This document shows, piece after piece, positions 1,968-35,667 of a DNA stretch of 39,465 nucleotides. The notes beneath the pieces are model-generated. The model was not told the DNA's origin. It saw nothing but the letters and a program-made list of their open reading frames with translations, and ran no database searches. Every line of letters starts with the position of its first letter. Positions within the stretch are counted from its first letter, which is position 1. The translations under genes and the position numbers were made by a program. The stretch spans positions 1 to 39,465 of IMG/VR virus record IMGVR_UViG_3300028392_000136; one strand, written 5' to 3'. This DNA comes from a virus.

Positions 1968-3132
1968 TGCTTGCCTCGCTCATGCCTTCGATAGAACGTC
2001 GCCCACGAGCACGGTTGGTAATCGCAGGCTCCACGATCGTTTCAGTGCCACCGTCGGCGTGAGGGATGATGTGGCTGTCGTCAAAGCCAGCCTGTGCGAT
2101 GTAACGCCGCTCTCGCTTTGGGATCACGAAGGCAGGCCCTCCAGCATCTTTCACTCGCTCCAGCCAGCGAAGTGACATCTGATCCATCCGCACCACCACC
2201 GGCTGGCCGTCAATCACAACCTCAAACCGCGCCGCCCAAGTTTTCCTCAGCGTGTTTGAAGCGACAAACCATTCCACAAGCGAAATGAAAAAGTCAGAAG
2301 CAAGGCCGTTGTTCTTGCTGTAGAAGTGAGCCGAGTAGAGCGCCCTAACTGCCGTCAAATCCCACCGCTTGGCCGGATGCGATTCAGTTTTCATCCGAAG
2401 GATGGCATTCACCCTTTCGATAGTTTGGATAAATGCGTCGGCCTTGCTCCTCCAATCGGAGAGATTCTGATCAAGCCAGATGCGAACCCTCCTCTCAATC
2501 TGATCGTTCAGGCTGAGCTCAGACTTGGCGTAAAGCTGAATTTCTTTGTGCCGGCTGGCGTACTGATAAAACAGCCCAAGGCTATTCCGGTGAAGCTGGC
2601 CGGCTTTCTTTCTGCCGTGATCGCTGGAGCGGCTAATGCCTGCCATTCCAACAGACAGATCGTCCAGCTTCATGCGAATGAATTCATACATTTCCTTACC
2701 GGCCGTGTCGCGCTCAAGATCGCCGCGATATTTTTCGTACGGAACAAGTCCGATTCCGTCGTTCAGGTGCTGAAAGTCGAGCCTTGCTTCGTCGTGCGAC
2801 TCATACTCCATTGACTGATGAGATACGTTCGCATTTTGGAGGATCCCGACGTCTTCCTTCGTCAAGCCATACAAAGAAGGATTCTCAATGGCCCTCATTA
2901 GAGTTGTGATCCTCTGCCTTCCGTCCTGAAGGAATTTGGTTGAGCCGCCTTTTAGCTTGTACGTAGTGATTACTCCAAGCACATGCTCGAGGGAGATAGT
3001 TCGGCGCAGAAAATGAACAGCCTTTTTGGGGCTCCATACGTATTCACGCTGATAGTCCGGATCAATCAGATCGCGAACCCGATAATCTTGAACAATGTCT
3101 TTTGCAAGTCTGGTGCTCGCGCCGATGCTCAT
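1960..3132 (-). CDS. DUF262 (ParB/Srx-fold) protein with C-terminal HNH-like nuclease motif
   Basis: 390 residues. Near the N-terminus are YQREYVWSPKK (about 27-37) and QDGRQRITTL (about 69-78), the two hallmark boxes of DUF262, the ParB/sulfiredoxin-fold domain of GmrS-type NTP-driven restriction enzymes. The usual DGQQR is DGRQR here. The C-terminus has SHIIPHADGG (353-362) followed by NRARGRR, which matches the His and Asn of an HNH core without the zinc-binding CxxC pairs. The ATG overlaps the methyltransferase stop by 4 bp. I infer a nuclease paired with the methyltransferase, either a restriction/exclusion unit or a DNA-processing pair. Target is unknown. Confidence 0.75.
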   Translation of the reverse strand: MSIGASTRLAKDIVQDYRVRDLIDPDYQREYVWSPKKAVHFLRRTISLEHVLGVITTYKLKGGSTKFLQDGRQRITTLMRAIENPSLYGLTKEDVGILQNANVSHQSMEYESHDEARLDFQHLNDGIGLVPYEKYRGDLERDTAGKEMYEFIRMKLDDLSVGMAGISRSSDHGRKKAGQLHRNSLGLFYQYASRHKEIQLYAKSELSLNDQIERRVRIWLDQNLSDWRSKADAFIQTIERVNAILRMKTESHPAKRWDLTAVRALYSAHFYSKNNGLASDFFISLVEWFVASNTLRKTWAARFEVVIDGQPVVVRMDQMSLRWLERVKDAGGPAFVIPKRERRYIAQAGFDDSHIIPHADGGTETIVEPAITNRARGRRSIEGMSEASNG

Positions 3133-4571
3133 GTTCCTGAAAGCCTTTCTGTTGCGATATCCGCGAACCGTTCGCTCTTCTCGATGCCGACATACTTTCG
3201 GCCGTTTCGGACAGAGGCCACGCCACTCGTGCCGCTGCCGTTAAACGGATCAACCACAAGATCCCCAGGCATCGAAGCGCAGAGCACGATCGGTTCCACC
3301 AGCGCCAGCGGAAGCTGCGTCGGAAAGTCTGGAATCCGCTCTGCGCATGTGCCGGTGAGTCGTGGAATCTGCCAGACGTCATCCCAGATCTTTCCGCCGA
3401 CAGAAGCTCGAGCATCGCCGTACTTCGTCTGCCTGTCGCTTGGCCGCGTCACGGCCTCCGAGTTGAATACGAACGCCTTTGGATCCTTGACGGCATAAAA
3501 TATGTGCCTGCTGGTGCGGTTGAACTTGTTGGAGCAGTTGACTCCAAACGTCTCGTACCACTTGATCCACGAACGAACCGTCAACCCACGGCGCTTGAGG
3601 ATCAAGGCATATTCCGCCGCGTACTCATCGCCGATCATCACCCAGAGCGATCCATCATCGGTGAGGCAGTCGCAGCAGAGTCCGATCCAGTCATCTACCC
3701 ACCGGAGATACTTGTCGTTAGGCAGGCTGTCGGCGTCCGAACCTGTGCCGTAATCGATTCCAATGTTGTAGGGAGGATCGGTGAATATTAGCCGCGCCGG
3801 GCCGTGCTCGTCTCGCACCGATGCCAGCCCGTCGAGCACATCCACGTTGAGCACAGACCACGTTGGCCGATCTTTTTCGTGGCAAACCTCGGCGGCCTTC
3901 TGCGCCGCCTGGGCGGCCAGCTGCTCGCGGCGTTTGCGGCTGCGGATTTCCTTTAGGGCGGCGGCTGAACTTATGGCTCCCGATACAACCTTTGCCTCAA
4001 GATCTGGATGCTTGGCGATCTGCTCCGCCCGTCCCATCGTGGCCGGCGATACCCGCGCCTCGGCGGCGCGGGCCTCGCGGGCCGGATGCTTTCCGCCTTT
4101 TGGTCGCGGCTCATTGTGATCCGCGACCAAAGTCTCACCCAAACGAGGCTTGCTCTTGGCGTGCTGCACCTTCGCTGCCGCCGCCCGCTTGGCGTTGCCT
4201 GCGGCCTTGATTGCGCCGTGCTTCTTGGCCCACTTGGCCGAGCCTTCTTCGCACCGCTTGAAGGCCAATGCGCGAACGATCCCTTCCATGTCGCGGCGAG
4301 CACCATTCAGCGACCACGCAAAGGCCCACGGATCACCGTCGAAGTCGCGAGTCTGTGGATCAATCCCAAGCTCAAGGCACGCGCGATATCTGTTTCTGCC
4401 GTCAAGAATCATCCCGTCGCACACGGTGACAGGCTCGCGTTGTCCGCTCACCAGAATGTCGGCCTTTAGTTCCGAAAACCGCGCATCATCCATTATTGGA
4501 AAAGCATTGGCTGCCGGATGGCTCTTCAGTTCTTCCGCTACTGCTGGCATAAAAGCCTCCTTGCGTGTCAT
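3129..4571 (-). CDS. ParB-domain DNA amino-methyltransferase (beta class)
   Basis: 480 residues. An N-terminal ParB-like domain (to about 110) has MILDGRNRYRACLELG. A Lys/Ala-rich linker follows, then a methyltransferase with the catalytic DPPYN box (265-269) and, further on, the SAM-binding DPFNGSGTSG (441-450). Catalytic box before SAM box is the beta-class order, giving N6-adenine or N4-cytosine methylation. Two starts are plausible: 4571, ATGA-coupled to the upstream gene with GGAGG nearby, or 4550, five bases after AAGGAGG. Downstream is the DUF262-HNH gene with a 4-bp overlap, suggesting modification plus nuclease. Phages also use such orphan enzymes for self-protection. Confidence 0.9.
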   Translation of the reverse strand: MTRKEAFMPAVAEELKSHPAANAFPIMDDARFSELKADILVSGQREPVTVCDGMILDGRNRYRACLELGIDPQTRDFDGDPWAFAWSLNGARRDMEGIVRALAFKRCEEGSAKWAKKHGAIKAAGNAKRAAAAKVQHAKSKPRLGETLVADHNEPRPKGGKHPAREARAAEARVSPATMGRAEQIAKHPDLEAKVVSGAISSAAALKEIRSRKRREQLAAQAAQKAAEVCHEKDRPTWSVLNVDVLDGLASVRDEHGPARLIFTDPPYNIGIDYGTGSDADSLPNDKYLRWVDDWIGLCCDCLTDDGSLWVMIGDEYAAEYALILKRRGLTVRSWIKWYETFGVNCSNKFNRTSRHIFYAVKDPKAFVFNSEAVTRPSDRQTKYGDARASVGGKIWDDVWQIPRLTGTCAERIPDFPTQLPLALVEPIVLCASMPGDLVVDPFNGSGTSGVASVRNGRKYVGIEKSERFADIATERLSGT

Positions 4572-9935: not shown

Positions 9936-9989
9936 CCTTGCCTTCCGGCGGAGATCAACCATACGGTTCTCTCCCGCCGATGAATTGAC

Positions 9990-10043
9990 TACACCCCGCT
10001 GGGCTCGAACCAGCAACCTTCGGTTCCGTAGACCGATGCTCTC
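9990..10043 (-). other. Phage attachment site candidate: 3' part of a tRNA-Arg(ACG) gene
   Basis: On the minus strand, GAGAGCA is followed by a perfect anticodon arm (TCGGT-CTACGGA-ACCGA, anticodon ACG), variable loop AGGTT, T-arm GCTGG-TTCGAGC-CCAGC, then GGGGTGT and A. The 5' half is not tRNA: there is no GCTC to pair with GAGC and the acceptor 5' strand is wrong. Integrases commonly use such tRNA 3' ends, and carrying one in attP rebuilds the host gene after integration. It lies 117 bases from the integrase start. A run of eight T at 10093-10100 may bend the adjacent DNA. Confidence 0.75.
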
Positions 10044-10159
10044 CCTCTCAGGGGGCAGAGTTTGACGATTCTTCGGCCAAACACCCCCCATTTTTTTTGT
10101 TTGCCCCCCTCAAATAGATTCCCCGGCTGGCATGGATGCCTCCCACAAACGGAGCCCCC

Positions 10160-11050
10160 ATGCCAACTGTCCAAACTCTGTCCGGCTATTTGCCTGAATA
10201 CGGCCTCACGCGGGCCATCGGTGCTGAAACGGCTCGGCAGTACCGGATGAGCGTCGAATCACTTGAGCGGTTCGCCGGCGGCCCGCTCCCGCTGGATCGC
10301 CTCGATCCGCTCCAGGTGTCCGAGTGGCTGCGCCATCTGAGCGAGTCCCGAGCACCGGCAACCGTCCGCAGTAAACGGTGCCAGATCGTCGCGCTTTGGA
10401 GAGCAGCTGCCGATGACGGCCTCTGCCAGCCTCCCCAGCGGCGGATCAGATCGGCCAAATGCCCGTGGGTGGCTCCCACCGCTCTGGCGTTTGCCGATGT
10501 GCAAGGCCTTGTGGCGGCCTGCCACTTTCTCCCACGTGTCCACCCCTGCGGAATCCGGCGATCGGAATGGTGGGAGCTGGCAGTGCGCGTCGGCTGGGAC
10601 ACAGCGCTGCGGTGGAGCGACATGATCCATTTGCGGGTGGATCAGATCGGCCCGGAGGGGGTGGTGGTGGTGACGCAGCAGAAGACCGGCCGCCTGCTGG
10701 TGGGGAGGCTCCAGCGGAGCACGCTCGCCCTGGCGGTGGCGTCGGTGAGTCGCAGCCCGCGAGGTGTCCTGCTGCCGTGGGCCGCATCGCACGAGACATT
10801 CTCTGCGCAATTCCGCCGGCTCGCCGCGAAGGCTCGTCTGCCGGCTCGGGCCACGTGGAAATGGGTGCGCCGCGGCTCGGCCACCGATGCCGAGCTGCAC
10901 GAGCGAGGCTCGGCATCGCGGCACCTCGGCCATCGCGAGGGCTCGCGGGTGGCGGCGGAGTCCTACCTCGATCCGCGAATCCTCGGCGCGAGCGGCAGCG
11001 GAGCGAGGGAATTGACGATCGGCAATTCTGCGGGTAGGGTTGGCCCATGA
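10160..11050 (+). CDS. int: Tyrosine recombinase integrase
   Basis: 296 residues from ATG 10160 (GGAGC upstream; a start at 10136 lacks a ribosome site). An N-terminal SAM-like core-binding domain (~1-95) precedes the catalytic domain: ALRWSDMIHL supplies the first Arg (151), QQKTGR the Lys (175), KWVRRGSAT the second Arg with Lys in place of the usual His, LGHREGSRVAAESYLD the His (258) and the Tyr nucleophile (269). It would recombine the adjacent tRNA-Arg site with the host copy. First gene of the plus-strand operon, ATGA-coupled to the excisionase-like gene. Confidence 0.9.
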   Translation: MPTVQTLSGYLPEYGLTRAIGAETARQYRMSVESLERFAGGPLPLDRLDPLQVSEWLRHLSESRAPATVRSKRCQIVALWRAAADDGLCQPPQRRIRSAKCPWVAPTALAFADVQGLVAACHFLPRVHPCGIRRSEWWELAVRVGWDTALRWSDMIHLRVDQIGPEGVVVVTQQKTGRLLVGRLQRSTLALAVASVSRSPRGVLLPWAASHETFSAQFRRLAAKARLPARATWKWVRRGSATDAELHERGSASRHLGHREGSRVAAESYLDPRILGASGSGARELTIGNSAGRVGP

Positions 11051-12426: not shown

Positions 12427-12492
12427 CCGGAGCGTAGGCCACCGCCATCGCCTCAATAGTAGGGCTGGTGGGCAGAGCAGCCTACGCTCCGG
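12427..12492. terminator. Large inverted repeat between convergent operons
   Basis: CCGGAGCGTAGGC (12427-12439) and GCCTACGCTCCGG (12480-12492) are perfect 13-bp arms around a 40-nt loop. The plus-strand operon ends at 12421 and the minus-strand gene ends at 12482, so the repeat is placed to stop both. There is no clear T-run. A site for a protein that bridges the arms is the alternative. Confidence 0.55.
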
Positions 12493-12784
12493 ACGGCCGA
12501 GGGCAGGTGCCATTTGGGCACGCGCCGCAGGGGCACCGCTCAATGCGCTCGCCAGACGGCCCGGCCCGGAGCACCTTCCCCAGGCCGCCGCATTGCGGGC
12601 AGGGAGGCTTTGGTGCCGGTGGCGGTGGTGCGGGAGGTGTCGGTGCGGGCGGGGCTTCCTCCACCGCCTGCGCGGCGTAGGCGATCGCCACCGCGGCGGC
12701 CGCGGGCGGGTGGGCCTGCTCTACCGCGGCCGGCTCGGCCGCGAGGGACGCGAAGAAGGCTACCATCGTGTGCCAGAGCGTCAT
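12482..12784 (-). CDS. Membrane-proximal protein with C-terminal zinc-ribbon-like Cys cluster
   Basis: 100 residues from ATG 12784, ATGA-coupled to the gene upstream. A hydrophobic start (MTLWHTMVAFFASLAAEPAA) is followed by an Ala-rich helix, a proline linker (APTPPAPPPPAPKPP), then CPQCGGLGKV...CPCGACPNGTCP, a DnaJ-like CxxCG cluster that could bind zinc. The proline linker resembles a periplasm-spanning spacer. Possible role in lysis or the envelope. Not recognised. Confidence 0.6.
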   Translation of the reverse strand: MTLWHTMVAFFASLAAEPAAVEQAHPPAAAAVAIAYAAQAVEEAPPAPTPPAPPPPAPKPPCPQCGGLGKVLRAGPSGERIERCPCGACPNGTCPRPSGA

Positions 12785-12960
12785 GGGAAATAAATCTCCG
12801 TGGCCTTCCCAAGGGCTCCAGATGCCGCAGCCACCACGCCGAACGTGCCGAGCATCTTCCACACCACCTCTTCCGTCACTGCTCCCCACAGCCCGAGCAC
12901 GGCCAGAACAGCCGAGAGCAGGATCAATCCGCAGAGCGTGGCGCCAACGTATTTCTTCAT
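12781..12960 (-). CDS. Small membrane protein, holin-like
   Basis: 59 residues from ATG 12960, with GGAGG eight bases upstream. A first transmembrane segment spans about 6-28 (ATLCGLILLSAVLAVLGLWG) and a second, weaker one about 36-50 (MLGTFGVVAAASGALG), with few charges. Two short membrane helices fit a class II holin. ATGA overlap downstream. A holin role is an inference from size and location. Confidence 0.55.
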   Translation of the reverse strand: MKKYVGATLCGLILLSAVLAVLGLWGAVTEEVVWKMLGTFGVVAAASGALGKATEIYFP

Positions 12961-13232
12961 TAGAAACTCCTCCCGTGATCGATCACCGGGTGCCCATCAG
13001 CCCCGATTGCGTGAAGCACCACCCGTCGCTCCGGCTCCGGTGCCGGCGCCGGCTCGGCGAACGCGAGGCCCCACAGAGCCAGCCTCGCGAGTCGAGAGAG
13101 AGCCGAGAGCACCGGCCTTGATGGCCGCGGCGGCTCCGGCCGGATCGGCGAGGCAGGCGAGGAAGCCAGCCACCACCCGAGGGCGAGAGCGACGAGCACG
13201 GCGGCAATTGTGGTTCGCATGGAGGGCCTCAT
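12960..13232 (-). CDS. Small exported or membrane-anchored protein
   Basis: 90 residues from ATG 13232 (ATGA overlap with the protease stop) or 86 from 13220, which has GAGG six bases before it. A hydrophobic N-terminal segment (TIAAVLVALALGWWLASSPA) is followed by a Pro/Arg-rich stretch, then APAPEPERRVVLHAIGADGH. This TM plus proline-rich layout recalls spanin-type proteins, but there is no lipobox Cys. Function unknown. Confidence 0.55.
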   Translation of the reverse strand: MRPSMRTTIAAVLVALALGWWLASSPASPIRPEPPRPSRPVLSALSRLARLALWGLAFAEPAPAPEPERRVVLHAIGADGHPVIDHGRSF

Positions 13233-14365
13233 GGGGAAAGGGAGAAGACACCGGCGATGATGCCGGCCGTTTGCTTGCGTGCAGCAGCTGCTGGCGGCGC
13301 CGGCTCGAACCAAGCGCCGTGATCGAGATCGCGGGCGGCGAAGCCGTTCACGCCACCGACAACGAAGGAATCGCCCTGGCGGAGGATGGCCTCAATGTCT
13401 TGGCGGGTGGCCCAGAATGAGCCCTCCGGCATGTCGGCCGGCCACCGCGGGCCGCTCACCCACGTGGTTCCCCAGCTGTTGAGGATAAGCACGCCGTCGC
13501 GGGGAGATCCGTTTTTCGCGTATCGCACCGCAACACAGCACATACAATGTCCCCACGTTCCACCCCTTGGAAGGAACGCGTCGCGATCCCTCACGCTGGT
13601 GGCGGCGAAGCCAACGTTAGAGCAGATGGGAACGCACAGGCCGTTCTCAATGGCGGCGCACAGCGAATCCCACGAATCGCAGAGAGCCACTTCTTTCGCA
13701 GTGTGCTCGTTGGCCAGCTTCGCGAGTGCGTCCGGCACGCCGCTGTTGCCCCACTCGCGAGAGCGAGTGATTGAGTATTCCGTGAGATCCACGCTCCCGT
13801 ATTTTTCACGGAATAAGATGCCGCCGCGGCCATTTTTCAGCCCCTTTACGTAGCGGGCCGCCGCGGCTCCGTAGCTCCCATCGGAATAGCCTGCAAGCGT
13901 CACCGGCGGCAGGCGGCCGAGGGTGCGACTCCCGCCGTAGATGTTTTCTGTGGCCACAAGCAGCGGCGGCTTTTGCAGCTCTCCCTGCGTCCAATCCACG
14001 GCGGCGCCGATGTAGCAACCCACGCCCCATCCGAAGCTCACGCACGTACCCGCCGAGCCTTGATTCCAAGCGGTGAACGGCTTTCCATAAACTTCCCGGT
14101 GTGCCCGATCCGCGGCCCGATAGAGGAACGTGTCTCGCCCCTTTGCATTCGCCATCACCTCCGGTGCGGCACCAGAAAAAAGCGGATGCTCAAGGGCGCC
14201 GAGGAATTCCTTCACGCCGGCGGGATCCGGCTGGTAGCCGAAATTCGTTTCAACTTTCGCGGCGAGATGATTCGTGTACCGCTGCACCAACGCGCCCAGC
14301 GCCGCCATCACGATCACGAACGTGATCGCACTCCAGCTCCACGCGGTGGCCTGTTGTCTGGTCAT
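13229..14365 (-). CDS. Membrane-anchored papain-like (C1A) cysteine protease
   Basis: 378 residues from ATG 14365 (ATGA overlap; GGAGG ten bases upstream). A hydrophobic N-terminal anchor (about 11-28) is followed by a papain-type catalytic set: Gln102 and Cys108 in NQGSAGTCVSFGWG (Gln-x5-Cys as in papain), His273 in GTWGHCMCC and Asn296 in LILNSWGTTW. Extra Cys pairs suggest disulfides outside the cytoplasm. Eukaryotic-type C1A proteases are rare in phages. It sits amid small membrane proteins where lysis genes are expected, so it may digest envelope or S-layer protein at release. Host-entry or anti-predator roles are possible. Confidence 0.8.
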   Translation of the reverse strand: MTRQQATAWSWSAITFVIVMAALGALVQRYTNHLAAKVETNFGYQPDPAGVKEFLGALEHPLFSGAAPEVMANAKGRDTFLYRAADRAHREVYGKPFTAWNQGSAGTCVSFGWGVGCYIGAAVDWTQGELQKPPLLVATENIYGGSRTLGRLPPVTLAGYSDGSYGAAAARYVKGLKNGRGGILFREKYGSVDLTEYSITRSREWGNSGVPDALAKLANEHTAKEVALCDSWDSLCAAIENGLCVPICSNVGFAATSVRDRDAFLPRGGTWGHCMCCVAVRYAKNGSPRDGVLILNSWGTTWVSGPRWPADMPEGSFWATRQDIEAILRQGDSFVVGGVNGFAARDLDHGAWFEPAPPAAAARKQTAGIIAGVFSLSP

Positions 14366-14514
14366 GCGTCCCATGCCTCCAGAGCATCGCCGAGATCCTC
14401 AAGCCAATCGGCTGCGAACGCGAGGAGGCACGCGGCCAGCGATACCGGCACAGCGACGCAGAGCACCGCGAACCATGCGAGATCAGCGAGGAATCGAAGC
14501 AGATTGCGGCTCAT
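14362..14514 (-). CDS. Single-span small membrane protein
   Basis: 50 residues from ATG 14514, ATGA-coupled both upstream and downstream. One long hydrophobic helix (ADLAWFAVLCVAVPVSLAAC) with an acidic C-terminus (DWLEDLGDALEAWDA). Size and neighbours fit a holin, antiholin or pinholin. Too short to assign with confidence. Confidence 0.55.
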   Translation of the reverse strand: MSRNLLRFLADLAWFAVLCVAVPVSLAACLLAFAADWLEDLGDALEAWDA

Positions 14515-14972
14515 CGTGCAGCAACCTCCGCGGCCCGCGATACGTCGCGGAGAGCGTCCACCCACGCCACGCGGCCAGCGGCATCCACCGGCCCGCCGCT
14601 GGTGCCCACCTTGGAATCGAGGTAGGCCTTGATCGCATCGCGGACGCGAGGCTGCTTGGCTCCGAGTGATTCCCCGCGGCAGCGGATCTCGCGAGCGGCT
14701 CTCCTGAGATCGTCAAAGGCGGCGCCGGTGCGGAGCCGCGGTTCAGGCTTGGCGGCGGTTGCGATGCCATCCTGCTCGATCGCGTCGGCCAGCTCGCCCG
14801 TGAGGCCGGCCGTTGTGGCCGCATCTTTGGCCGCATCCAAGCCGATGAAGAGCCCGCGGAGATCCAGCGGGGATTCCGGCAGCGGGGCAGGGGATGGCTG
14901 TACGGATGGCCACGCCGCACAGAGCACGGCAACGCCGATCAGAATGCCAGCGATCAGAACACGCCGATTCAT
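14511..14972 (-). CDS. Exported helical protein
   Basis: 153 residues. An N-terminal signal-anchor (RRVLIAGILIGVAVLCAAWP) is followed by a soluble helical domain (LFIGLDAAKDAATTAGLTGE ... AAREIRCRGESLGAK). It could be an envelope-facing lysis accessory such as an inner-membrane spanin. ATGA overlaps on both sides place it in the lysis-like chain. Not recognised. Confidence 0.6.
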   Translation of the reverse strand: MNRRVLIAGILIGVAVLCAAWPSVQPSPAPLPESPLDLRGLFIGLDAAKDAATTAGLTGELADAIEQDGIATAAKPEPRLRTGAAFDDLRRAAREIRCRGESLGAKQPRVRDAIKAYLDSKVGTSGGPVDAAGRVAWVDALRDVSRAAEVAAR

Positions 14973-15280
14973 TTGGCCTCCACCGGCAGAGCTTCAGAGA
15001 TCAGATCAAAGGCCTTCCGCAGATCGTCGCCGAGGAGCTCGTCGGCGGCGAGCCGCCGGCGGATGGCTGCGAGTTGCTCACGCTCGCTAGTGGGAGAGGG
15101 CGGAGCTTTGGCCGAGCCGGGCGGCGCCGGGGGAGGTGGGAGCGTGGCGGCAGGGAATTCGATGCGGCCGGGCGCGTAGGCGGCCGGCTGGCCGGCCGGC
15201 GATGCCGTCCACCACAGATAGGCCACCGCCGCAGCCACAAACAGCAAAGGAATCCAACCGATCTGTGCGAAGAGGATCAT
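14969..15280 (-). CDS. Bitopic membrane protein
   Basis: 103 residues from ATG 15280 (ATGA overlap). TM helix near the N-terminus (IGWIPLLFVAAAVAYLWWTA), then a Pro-rich linker (ATLPPPPAPPGSAKAPPSP) and a charged C-terminal helix (EREQLAAIRRRLAADELLGD). The layout suits a spanin-like or holin-accessory protein. Function unknown. Confidence 0.55.
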   Translation of the reverse strand: MILFAQIGWIPLLFVAAAVAYLWWTASPAGQPAAYAPGRIEFPAATLPPPPAPPGSAKAPPSPTSEREQLAAIRRRLAADELLGDDLRKAFDLISEALPVEAK

Positions 15281-15624
15281 GCCACGGCCGCCTTTCGGAC
15301 AAGGGGAAGCAGGGAATCGATCATCCCGCCGGCAGCGGCGAGAACGATTGAGCGGATCGCCGGCCGGAGCACCAGCCAGGCGGGAGTGGCAATCCACGGC
15401 ACGCAAGCAAAAGCGACGGCGTCGAAGAGCACGCCGATCATCTGCATGGCCCAGAGCTTTTTGTCTTGGCCGTCACCGCTCATCGTGTCGAGGCCGGCCG
15501 TGGCCAGGTGCAGCAGCTCCACCACCAGCGAGCCGAACTCAGCCACGGTGAGGCCGCCCTGAGCCTTTGCTTTCGCGTCGGCGATAAAGGCTTCAACGGC
15601 TGCGGTGAGTTGCTCTGGCGTCAT
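15277..15624 (-). CDS. Phage membrane protein, possible holin
   Basis: 115 residues from ATG 15624 (ATGA overlap). A helical soluble N-terminus (PEQLTAAVEAFIADAKAKAQ) leads to two or three hydrophobic stretches: MIGVLFDAVAFACVPWIATP, AWLVLRPAIRSIVLAAAGGM and a short basic tail. Composition and place in the cluster suggest a holin or membrane scaffold. The family is unconfirmed. Confidence 0.55.
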   Translation of the reverse strand: MTPEQLTAAVEAFIADAKAKAQGGLTVAEFGSLVVELLHLATAGLDTMSGDGQDKKLWAMQMIGVLFDAVAFACVPWIATPAWLVLRPAIRSIVLAAAGGMIDSLLPLVRKAAVA

Positions 15625-15845
15625 CTGAGGAGCCCCTGTGCTATCGCTTGTTTCACCGCCGCCACCGTTGCGCCCAACTTGAACGCCAGCCATTCCAGCT
15701 CTCGCGGCGAGTAGGCCGGCCGGCTGGTGATCTTGCCCCACGATTCGTGCTTCTTCACCGAGTCAAATAACGTGAGCACCTCACCGGCGGCAGGCACGAT
15801 CTCCTGCCCGTCCGATCCGCGCCGCCAGTGGGAGCGAGCGATCAC
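15621..15845 (-). CDS. Small DNA-binding-like protein
   Basis: 74 residues from GTG 15845 (GGTGG upstream). SPRELEWLAFKLGATVAAVKQAIAQG reads as a helix-turn-helix-like pair of helices, after KKHESWGKI. It begins 10 bases after the stop of the Nmad1-like gene. Possibly a small regulator. Weak evidence. Confidence 0.5.
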   Translation of the reverse strand: MIARSHWRRGSDGQEIVPAAGEVLTLFDSVKKHESWGKITSRPAYSPRELEWLAFKLGATVAAVKQAIAQGLLR

Positions 15846-26544: not shown

Positions 26545-26985
26545 TCACGCAAAGAATCGATACGTGGCCACGATGCTGGCCCGCCACACGTTCCGCTCAT
26601 TGAGAGCATCGTCGGGATTCGTTTCGATCGTCACCGTCAGCGGCGATACCGTGCCTGTGGGAAACGTCACACCCGGATAAGAATGATCCATCAGAGCGTC
26701 TAGCACCGCCTCCGCCTGATTGCTGATGGCCGTTACTTCGGCATCGGTATCAACTTTTTGCGCCACATAGACTTGCACGGTGTAATCGTTCTGCCGCTGG
26801 CTCGGCCGAGCGATCCGCACCGTCTCCCGGTTGCCAGCCGTCACGACGATGGCCGGCACCACCAGCTGCTCCGGGCCTTTGCTGATCCAGTTGGCACGCT
26901 CCACGGTGGTGCCAGCGATGGCCCAGCTCTTGGCCGCGAGGCCGGTTGCCACCGCATCGGCAAGCGATTGGAGAAATGCACTCAT
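26545..26985 (-). CDS. Tail terminator/completion-like protein
   Basis: 146 residues from ATG 26985 (ATGA overlap). SAFLQSLADAVATGLAAKSW, then beta strands VVPAIVVTAGNRETVRIARP and QNDYTVQVYVAQKV, a helix EVTAISNQAEAVLDALMDH, then TVTIETNPDD and RASIVATYRFFA. This alpha/beta order is that of tail terminators (gpU-like). Its position next to the connector gene supports this. Confidence 0.65.
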   Translation of the reverse strand: MSAFLQSLADAVATGLAAKSWAIAGTTVERANWISKGPEQLVVPAIVVTAGNRETVRIARPSQRQNDYTVQVYVAQKVDTDAEVTAISNQAEAVLDALMDHSYPGVTFPTGTVSPLTVTIETNPDDALNERNVWRASIVATYRFFA

Positions 26986-28040
26986 ACCGGAACCGCCTCC
27001 CCGGCCACAACACGCTCCATCGCAGCCACGTTGGCCGCAATCCGTGTGTCTTCCGGTAATCGTGCCATAGCTTCCCTCGCGTGCGAGAGAGCCTCTGGCT
27101 GCCGCTGTAGATTCCACAGCGCCACGCTGGCCAGATCGTGGCACTTAGCGAGGCTGTCTGGATTGGTGGCGTGTGTCTGCTGGCCGGTGGCCGCGATGCC
27201 GTGGAGAGCGTGCTCCAGGCACTCGGCCCACGCCTGGAGGTGGTAGGCCCGGAGAGCCAGCAGCTCGTGGCCGTCCGGCTCGTCTGGAGCCTCGCGGGTG
27301 ATCGCCTCAAGGTGGATGGGATCGCCGGTAAGATGCCAGAGCTGCCGGCGAGCGTAGGCCCGCTCGGAGTACCAGCCGCCTCGCATTGAGAGGTAGCGTG
27401 TGAATTGCGAGATCGCCTCCGGATTGCCTTCGTAGTCAAGCTGCCGAGCCAGATACCAGCGAGCTCGAGCGTCCAGCGGCGCCTCCGCCACCGCCACGCG
27501 AAGCAGGTGCAGATCGGAGGAATGAGATTTTCCAGCGTCGCGATGGTGATGGATTTCCAAGCCCGGCGCGAAGCCGGCGATCTTCTCGCCCGTCCAACAC
27601 AGCAAGCCCTCATGCGTGGCCTGAGCCCAGCGAAAGCCTGCCCGGCAATGCACCCTGTCACCATTGAACGTCTGCCCTGGCGTGCCGTCGGCCCGGAAGC
27701 CCCACACGTAGCGATAGTGCAGGCAGTTGATTCCCTCCTGCCACGCGGCCTCCACTGCCTGCCGCCAGCCCGGCTGGAGCCGCTCATCAAGATCAAGCCG
27801 GATCGCGATATCCAGATCCGGCGGCAGATGCGAGAGGCTCAGATTGTGTGCATCGTCCCACCGCCACGGGATGACGGCGCCGGTGGCAACCGTCACGCCA
27901 GCGGCCGCGAGGATCGCCTGCGTGCCGTCCTCAGAGCCGGTGTCGGTGACAACGCGGACGTCGGCTTCCTCGCACGATGCCGCCCAGGCGGCCGCGTGCT
28001 TGGCCTCGTTTTTCGCGAGAGCGTAGATGCCGATTCTCAA
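26982..28040 (-). CDS. Family-2-like glycosyltransferase with TPR-like helices
   Basis: 352 residues. MRIGIYALAKNEAKHAAAWA and VVTDTGSEDGTQAILA are the nucleotide-sugar end of a GT-A fold; IRLDLDERL carries the DxD metal site. The C-terminal ~170 residues are TPR-like helical repeats (DARARWYLARQLDYEG, WAECLEHALHGIAAT, PEALSHAREAMARLPEDT). It sits inside the structural operon, ATGA-coupled on both sides, next to two other glycan genes, so its target may be the virion or host surface glycan. Confidence 0.8.
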   Translation of the reverse strand: MRIGIYALAKNEAKHAAAWAASCEEADVRVVTDTGSEDGTQAILAAAGVTVATGAVIPWRWDDAHNLSLSHLPPDLDIAIRLDLDERLQPGWRQAVEAAWQEGINCLHYRYVWGFRADGTPGQTFNGDRVHCRAGFRWAQATHEGLLCWTGEKIAGFAPGLEIHHHRDAGKSHSSDLHLLRVAVAEAPLDARARWYLARQLDYEGNPEAISQFTRYLSMRGGWYSERAYARRQLWHLTGDPIHLEAITREAPDEPDGHELLALRAYHLQAWAECLEHALHGIAATGQQTHATNPDSLAKCHDLASVALWNLQRQPEALSHAREAMARLPEDTRIAANVAAMERVVAGEAVPV

Positions 28041-33729: not shown

Positions 33730-35667
33730 TCAGGACGTCGCGACGCGGAGCACGGCCAAGGGCTCGCCCTTGGTAACGCCGAAATCGAAGTAGCCGCGGA
33801 GCACGATTCCGAGCTTGTCGGAATCGGGGAGCACCTGTTCGATGATCGGCTGCTGCTGTCCGTTGAGGAAAGCAATGTCGATCGCCGGCAGATCCGCACC
33901 GTCCGCAGCCAGCCACCACGTGGACGCAGAACCGAGCGAGTTGCCGCTCGAATCCTTTACCGTCTCGAGGTAGTTGCTCTTCACAACTTCGTATTCGCCC
34001 ATGAGCACGTTGCTCGCGGGATCGAAGCTCTTGCTGCTGGTGCTGCCCAGGCTGGAGGCGAGCAACAGATTGCTCGTCATCAGCTGCTTGCTCGTCAGGT
34101 ACAGCGTCGGAGGCACGAGGAGCAGGCGAGCCGGGATCGACAAGGGGTTGCCGTCCGGATCGTTCAACTTGTTGTACGCCACGGTAGCGGACGACAGGCT
34201 CGTGTAAGACAGAGCATTGCCAGCAGCCGGCGTGATCGTCTGGTAATAGCTGCTGTTGTTGGTCAGGAACTCAGCCCAGATCGCTTCGTTCATGGCCAAC
34301 GCCGCACCGCGGCCCATTCGCTGAGGAATCAGCGAGAGAGCCGACAGATCATCGTTGTACATGTCTTGTCGCGTGATCTGCGTCGAGATGCCGTAGGTAT
34401 CAGCCGCAAGCGTACGCTTGTAGTCCGAAACCTTGGCCACCTTCAGTTCACCGGCGTTGCCGAGCTTCTGGAACTTCAGATCGCCGTTGAGCCGCAGCAG
34501 GTTCATAACCTTGAAGTCGTTCACGCTGCGGATCGCCGACATCCTTTCCCAAGTCCGCTCAACGGCATTGAAGCCGTTCAAGAGGAACTTGTTCGCCAGA
34601 TTCGACAGCATGTCAGCGAGCTGATGCGAAGCGAACGATGCCTGGATCACGGCTGGCAGATTGCCAGAGTTGAGCCGCTGGCTGCCGGTGTAGCCGTTGG
34701 CGTTGGCGGCCGCGAGGATGATGGTTTGCAGGCCCACCTCCCGCCGGATCTTGTCGGAGGCCTCCAACGTCTTTGCGTCGAAAGCGGCCTCCATTCGGGG
34801 CAGGCCGGCTTGCGAGCAGAGCGCGGCAAGAACGACTTCTGGATTGTCCACAGAGGCCTCCACGGTGTGAATGGCAGGGCCGGCCGGGCGAGCACTGCGT
34901 GCCGCCTCAACCTTCGCGATGGCCTCGAGCTTTTCGAGTGCTGCGTTCAGCTTCGTTTCGAGGCCGCTGATCTTCTCGGCAGTGCCATCGGTGGCAGCCG
35001 CCACGACAGCGGGAGTGGGTTCCGTGGCGACGCTCGCCGCGGCTTCGACCTTGTCGGCCGGCAAAGTGGCGTTGTCCGCCATAGAGGAATCCTCACTCGC
35101 TTCCGCAGCGATCGCGGCCGACGTTGCGGGGTCGGCACCCATCAGAACAATTGAAACTTCGCGCAGCTTGGAGCCGCGCACGACGGAGATCGGCCCGGCG
35201 AATTCGCGTCCGTTGACGCTCACCTTTTCGCCGGCCGAGATGTTTTCAATGCGGTTGATATCGGCGCCGATGGAGGCCTGGAACTTCATCCCGCGCTTCG
35301 CGAGCATGAGCACCTGATCGCTCGTCTGGCTTGCTCCAAACAGATCGCCAGAAAGCACCAGTTGCCGGCCGTCGTTGATCGTCGTAGACGACTGCCCAAG
35401 CACGCTGTCGAGGCTGGCGTCATGGCCGTAGAGGATCGGGAGCACGCCCGATCCGGTATCCATTCCGGCGAGATCCACCACCAGCGGATTGCGGCTCCAG
35501 AACTGCTTGATTGCGGCGCCGGTGTAGCCCACAAGTGAGAACGTCGGCGTTACCGGCTGGCCGGCCGCGTCCATTGCAGCTGCCACGCTAAATTCCGCCT
35601 GGATGGCCAGATGGTTTTTCTTCGCGGCGGCCACGGTGGCCATCTGTTGTGCGGTGCTTACCTTCAT
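33730..35667 (-). CDS. Fused prohead protease, scaffold and major capsid protein
   Basis: 645 residues. Residues 1-190 are a prohead protease: ILYGHDASLDSVLG (catalytic His region), KRGMKFQASIGADI (catalytic Ser region) and LREVSIVLMGADP. Residues ~196-270 are a helical scaffold or delta domain (AEKISGLETKLNAALEKLEA). From ~290 an HK97-fold capsid follows (LLRLNGDLKFQKLGNAGE, LAMNEAIWAEFLTNNSS, FDFGVTKGEPLAVL). Fusion of all three in one ORF is uncommon; phages usually use two or three genes. ATGA overlap with the portal gene. Confidence 0.85.
   Translation of the reverse strand: MKVSTAQQMATVAAAKKNHLAIQAEFSVAAAMDAAGQPVTPTFSLVGYTGAAIKQFWSRNPLVVDLAGMDTGSGVLPILYGHDASLDSVLGQSSTTINDGRQLVLSGDLFGASQTSDQVLMLAKRGMKFQASIGADINRIENISAGEKVSVNGREFAGPISVVRGSKLREVSIVLMGADPATSAAIAAEASEDSSMADNATLPADKVEAAASVATEPTPAVVAAATDGTAEKISGLETKLNAALEKLEAIAKVEAARSARPAGPAIHTVEASVDNPEVVLAALCSQAGLPRMEAAFDAKTLEASDKIRREVGLQTIILAAANANGYTGSQRLNSGNLPAVIQASFASHQLADMLSNLANKFLLNGFNAVERTWERMSAIRSVNDFKVMNLLRLNGDLKFQKLGNAGELKVAKVSDYKRTLAADTYGISTQITRQDMYNDDLSALSLIPQRMGRGAALAMNEAIWAEFLTNNSSYYQTITPAAGNALSYTSLSSATVAYNKLNDPDGNPLSIPARLLLVPPTLYLTSKQLMTSNLLLASSLGSTSSKSFDPASNVLMGEYEVVKSNYLETVKDSSGNSLGSASTWWLAADGADLPAIDIAFLNGQQQPIIEQVLPDSDKLGIVLRGYFDFGVTKGEPLAVLRVATS
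35082..35096 (-). promoter_or_regulatory. Internal ribosome site in the protease-capsid gene
   Basis: GAGG followed after 8 bases by ATG 35082 (Met196, MADNATLPAD) lies exactly at the border of protease and scaffold. Internal initiation would make a ~450-residue scaffold-capsid protein without protease, giving the needed excess of capsid. The analogue is lambda Nu3 started inside gene C. Confidence 0.6.

Follow-up and report, generated by a model that had tools for sequence, protein, structure and literature searches.

A chain of nine overlapping genes in a tailed phage may constitute a release cassette whose endolysin is replaced by a membrane-anchored cysteine protease acting on envelope protein. 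We put the probability of this reading at about 0.5, lysis and the substrate being the parts that we infer. It is favoured because the protease has the fold and the residues of C1A enzymes, because the membrane genes around it form an overlapping chain, and because the protease and one neighbour, sp153, are shared by unrelated phages; it is further favoured by a genomic position independent of the virion genes and by the lack of a peptidoglycan hydrolase in related records. Nearly all explanations of phage release invoke the cutting of peptidoglycan, and if the reading is true, a C1A protease replacing the endolysin would be a different and widespread way out of the cell.

The phage is known from sequencing alone, as IMG/VR virus record IMGVR_UViG_3300028392_000136. 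The window is the whole stretch of DNA that was analysed, that is, positions 1–39,465 of this record. Matches to PHROGs identify a tailed phage (terminase, portal, fused protease/capsid protein and tape measure protein) and also include a metallophosphoesterase, a Sak4-like protein, a methyltransferase and an integrase. The host would be a planctomycete, and a limited literature search found no relevant paper on planctomycete phages. Some other features of the window can be noted. A tRNA-Arg gene (9989–10059) adjoins the phage integrase gene (10160–11050) and is a possible attachment site, a single 645-aa protein (33730–35667) matches 'major head and protease protein', with the protease fused to the capsid protein, a glycosyltransferase gene (26982–28040, beta-1,4-glycosyltransferase PHROG) lies within the structural region, and one protein (3129–4571) joins a ParB-like N-terminal part to a C-terminal DNA methyltransferase.

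The chain occupies positions 12482–15845 on the minus strand, where it follows the tail genes as the last part of the late minus-strand genes, and consists of the following genes:

15621..15845, minus strand: 74-aa gene heading the chain, with a 4-base overlap with hol1; not widely conserved.
15277..15624, minus strand: hol1, a 115-aa small membrane protein, holin candidate by size and hydropathy.
14969..15280, minus strand: tm103, 103 aa with an N-terminal transmembrane segment; found by tblastn in the four nearest contigs only.
14511..14972, minus strand: sp153, a 153-aa putative exported protein with an N-terminal anchor, from hydropathy and conserved position.
14362..14514, minus strand: tm50, 50 aa, one transmembrane segment; present in near relatives only.
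13229..14365, minus strand: PAP, a predicted 378-aa membrane-anchored C1A papain-fold cysteine protease, from the fold model and residues.
12960..13232, minus strand: tm90, 90 aa, one transmembrane segment, from hydropathy; conserved position.
12781..12960, minus strand: tm59, a 59-aa small hydrophobic protein, holin candidate, with a homologue in the related locus L006.
12482..12784, minus strand: cys, 100 aa with two CxxC motifs, the N-terminal one like that of the thioredoxin-like gene in the Blastopirellula marina module.

Neighbouring genes overlap by 1–4 bases throughout, in the tight adjacent packing of holin-endolysin-spanin cassettes. The 4-base start/stop overlaps are at 15624/15621, 15280/15277, 14972/14969, 14514/14511, 14365/14362, 13232/13229 and 12784/12781, and the sole 1-base overlap is at 12960. 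By hydropathy, hol1, tm103, sp153, tm50, PAP, tm90 and tm59 have one strong transmembrane segment each. The original prediction had described the protease as embedded in overlapping holin- or spanin-like genes. The overlaps and the transmembrane segments bear this out, but the label itself goes back only to the size and hydropathy of the products: PHROGs assigns no holin to the chain proteins, hol1 and the other holin candidates included, and none of the libraries searched gives a holin, spanin or lysis annotation for the chain.

We now turn to the protease. The 378-residue protein encoded at 14365–13229 does have the membrane anchor ascribed to it, located by hydropathy at residues 9–27, and the Gln-Cys-His-Asn set is complete, with Gln102, Cys108, His273 and Asn296 together with an NSW motif (a longer start would give 381 aa, and the numbering Q105, C111, H276 and N299). 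These four residues and NSW are invariant in an alignment of 32 PAP sequences; in a wider set of relatives, 88/88 have Q, C and H, and 85/88 have N, the other three having Gln in place of N. Profile searches with PAP return weak cathepsin-type matches only, so that a fold comparison was needed. The window protein has no Pfam match (PF00112 included) or PHROGs match below E 0.1, and phmmer with the single sequence finds no match in the PDB. PF00112 is matched by one of the 32 family members (E 2.5e-5), while Pfam C39_2 matches two of them weakly (best E 0.0049), the window protein not being among these.

An earlier AlphaFold2 model made from 6 sequences was poor (pLDDT 57). With the 32-sequence alignment, the model reaches a pLDDT of 87 and a pTM of 0.83, and Foldseek and VIA-align comparisons both place it with the C1A peptidases, xylellain (3ois) first and then cathepsins. 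The match to xylellain has E 1e-8, and Z 22.5 over 245 residues, with an rmsd of 3.0 and 20% identity. By modelled fold and residues, PAP is thus a C1A-type enzyme, and its proteolytic activity is predicted.

The family is absent from PHROGs, and tblastn with the window PAP, the B. marina PAP and sp153 gave no match in 50,697 GenBank phage records, which means that annotation of planctomycete viruses misses PAP. In IMG/VR, a single sequence retrieves 6 relatives and a profile 217, of which 80 were kept; further relatives were found in genomes. Stand-alone homologues (L088 and L089) occur in Mucilaginibacter, a member of the Bacteroidota, in ordinary chromosomal surroundings with no module and no phage.

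A genuine endolysin elsewhere was looked for and none was found in the window or in related records. The Amidase_2 profile has no match above cut-off in 22 related records, and SLT, Peptidase_M15_3 and Phage_lysozyme have none above cut-off in 32 related records, control genomes being positive in both cases; the window is likewise without a match to any of the four families. An SLT match in G017 was rejected, as it is below cut-off and contains an internal stop. PHROGs identifies no peptidoglycan hydrolase among 40 window ORFs, in line with the initial statement that none is recognisable there. Pfam gives none among the matches listed for approximately 220 clusters of proteins from 11 phages, and none in full listings of 29 B. 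marina cluster proteins and of 60 prophage proteins from five other genomes. Within the module, no hydrolase other than PAP was recognised, and a peptidoglycan hydrolase of an unrecognised family is possible in these phages.

The survey of related phages for the same cassette returned a core module of hol1, sp153, PAP and tm90 in about 80 viral contigs and in Planctomycetota prophages. Gene counts were drawn from 89 loci. Where there is enough sequence, PAP is immediately preceded by sp153 in 80/83 loci, has tm90 downstream in 70/78, and has hol1 at most 2 kb upstream in 54/70, as well as in the B. marina cluster. A protein of 307–370 aa with a hydrophobic N-terminal part takes the sp153 position in L156, L159 and L161 (G360 and G322), and this longer protein of distant modules is perhaps a fusion of a holin-like protein and sp153. 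A protein of 75–83 aa with two or three hydrophobic segments (L006:11573-11824 and its homologues in G001–G010), resembling GlsB/YeaQ/YmgE by eye, adjoins the module in each of the ten long relatives; the window does not have it at this place.

The contigs that bear the core module have unrelated head and tail genes. By these genes, the 11 long viral records make up three or more unrelated groups; apart from PAP and sp153, no gene is shared by all 11 and the B. marina cluster. PAP was the criterion by which the loci were picked, so that only the sharing of sp153 is independent. The module stands before the terminase in B. marina, G233 and G360 contig 2. In G360 and G322 it separates the head genes from the tail genes, a location that would suit a virion or assembly protease for maturation or DNA entry. 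However, PAP has an N-terminal membrane anchor, its neighbourhood shifts freely relative to the virion genes, and the window encodes a separate head maturation protease, so this role is quite improbable. By these gene arrangements, the position of the module is independent of the virion genes, and the module moves between phages with unrelated ones. Such independence is seen in lysis or other host-directed modules.

One host-directed alternative is a membrane-anchored superinfection-exclusion or host-takeover module, that is, a moron remodelling surface proteins. Small membrane proteins and exported domains would suit such a role, as would the occurrence of PAP alone in Mucilaginibacter. Morons are usually patchy in distribution, however, whereas this module spans unrelated phage types that have no alternative endolysin among the matches listed. 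We consider this alternative unlikely, also in view of the genomes of Blastopirellula type, where purifying selection in an integrase-free head-tail cluster fits particle release better.

Three genomes, B. marina, G378 and G160, carry the module at one shared chromosomal site together with a set of head and tail genes, about 26 kb in all (for B. marina, L091–L093, about 23711–50578 of the joined 60 kb; further loci are L145–L150), and no integrase or replication genes were recognised in the cluster. In G372 the cluster is split, the module with TerL being apart from the portal and protease genes. Between B. marina and G378, dN/dS is at most 0.31 for every cluster gene and 0.08 for PAP, and the PAP value for B. 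marina against G160 is 0.10; the dS of the cluster resembles the values for the host genes on either side. Judged by these sequence comparisons, the B. marina cluster is vertically inherited and under purifying selection, and it resembles a domesticated phage or a gene transfer agent in which the module has been retained.

As to the substrate, cysteine-rich YTV proteins have been found in planctomycete wall preparations, and most Planctomycetales are without genes for peptidoglycan synthesis (PMC8567305), while peptidoglycan sacculi have been demonstrated in several planctomycetes (PMC4432640). Among 392 evenly sampled Planctomycetota genomes, PAP occurs in 12 and YTV wall-protein domains in 40, and all 12 PAP genomes are among those 40. 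The overlap has a hypergeometric probability of 2.4e-13, but YTV is near-universal in the class to which these genomes belong (190/199 genomes), so that descent is confounded. The association was therefore downgraded from a strong link to one with the YTV-bearing class overall, inseparable from descent.

The mraY gene is above cut-off in 333 of the 392 genomes. In B. marina, G160, G372 and G378, the hosts of the closest PAPs, MraY is below cut-off; compared within YTV-positive genomes, this gives p 0.005, but three of these four hosts share the inherited cluster, so that the comparison lacks independence. In seven of the 12 PAP genomes, whose PAP forms are more distant, mraY is present, and from these gene counts peptidoglycan is probably present in some PAP hosts. 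PAP is thus found both with and without mraY in this sample but always with YTV, a pattern that favours wall protein over peptidoglycan as the substrate.

These data also bear on the possibility that PAP belongs to a new family of anchored endolysins and acts as a papain-fold endopeptidase on the stem peptides of peptidoglycan. There are precedents in the papain-family (N5) and RipA-like (N4) domains of mycobacteriophage endolysins (PMC3314691) and in PeiW/PeiP, phage Cys-His-Asp pseudomurein peptidases that need a reductant (PMC4592898), and some hosts of distant PAPs do have mraY. The mraY-negative hosts of the closest relatives speak against it, as do the residues and fold, which are those of C1A proteases, C39_2 being matched weakly by two of 32 members only. 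We regard it as about as doubtful as the moron alternative, if not slightly more so.

For the release cassette, the following course of events can be suggested. The inner membrane would be permeabilised, or the event timed, by hol1 and/or tm59. PAP would be held in the inner membrane by its predicted anchor, with the predicted C1A domain outside the cytoplasm, and would cut proteins of the envelope, the cysteine-rich YTV proteins of the host wall being the likeliest target. Its neighbour sp153 may be a partner, an adaptor or a trans-acting inhibitor, and tm90 and the remaining small membrane proteins may bridge the gap between the inner membrane and outer layers. A redox partner is conceivable as well. 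The B. marina module encodes an exported thioredoxin-like protein, and the window and many relatives have a small CxxC protein in the matching position. CxxC proteins lie downstream in 37/59 loci against a background of 8% per gene, but several genes are counted per locus, so that the enrichment is only suggestive. Such a protein could serve an extracytoplasmic cysteine protease by maintaining its active-site cysteine in the reduced state, or could act on the wall by opening disulfides.

The protein-envelope target is suggested because the PAP genomes are all YTV-positive, because the closest hosts are without mraY, and because of the published data on YTV walls. The idea put forward at the outset, that release relies on proteolysis of a protein-rich envelope, has thus gained a mobile module and YTV-bearing hosts, several of them without mraY, while lysis and substrate are still its conjectural parts. 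Against the release cassette count the confounding of YTV with descent, the mraY genes of seven PAP hosts, the reports of peptidoglycan sacculi, the lone PAPs of Mucilaginibacter and the lack of any holin, spanin or lysis annotation. The wider proposal, that a whole class of planctomycete phages and the gene transfer agent-like Blastopirellula cluster get their particles out without any peptidoglycan hydrolase, by proteolysis (plus reduction) of a cysteine-rich protein wall, is tentative and the less probable of the two. If the module does replace the endolysin by a C1A protease, it would match hosts of disputed wall composition and be an independent biological probe of the wall question.

Finally, the system can be compared with known ones. 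PAP shares the fold and the Gln-Cys-His-Asn set of xylellain and other C1A peptidases; unlike them, it is phage-encoded, has an N-terminal transmembrane anchor, and is distant in sequence, as seen from the identity and PF00112 results above. Like holin-endolysin-spanin cassettes, the chain combines small membrane proteins with one hydrolase, tightly packed in the late region, but a protease stands in the endolysin's place, no peptidoglycan hydrolase was detected, and no holin or spanin is named. PeiW and PeiP, the pseudomurein endoisopeptidases of Methanothermobacter phages, are likewise viral cysteine peptidases that are directed at a non-murein wall, as is presumed for PAP, and depend on a reductant (PMC4592898); they differ in their Cys-His-Asp triad, which is shared with transglutaminases, and are not C1A by residues. 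The papain/C39-like N5 domains of mycobacteriophage LysA likewise make a papain-superfamily enzyme part of the lysis cassette of a phage (PMC3314691), the role proposed here for PAP, but they are thought to cut peptidoglycan and are part of a modular endolysin.
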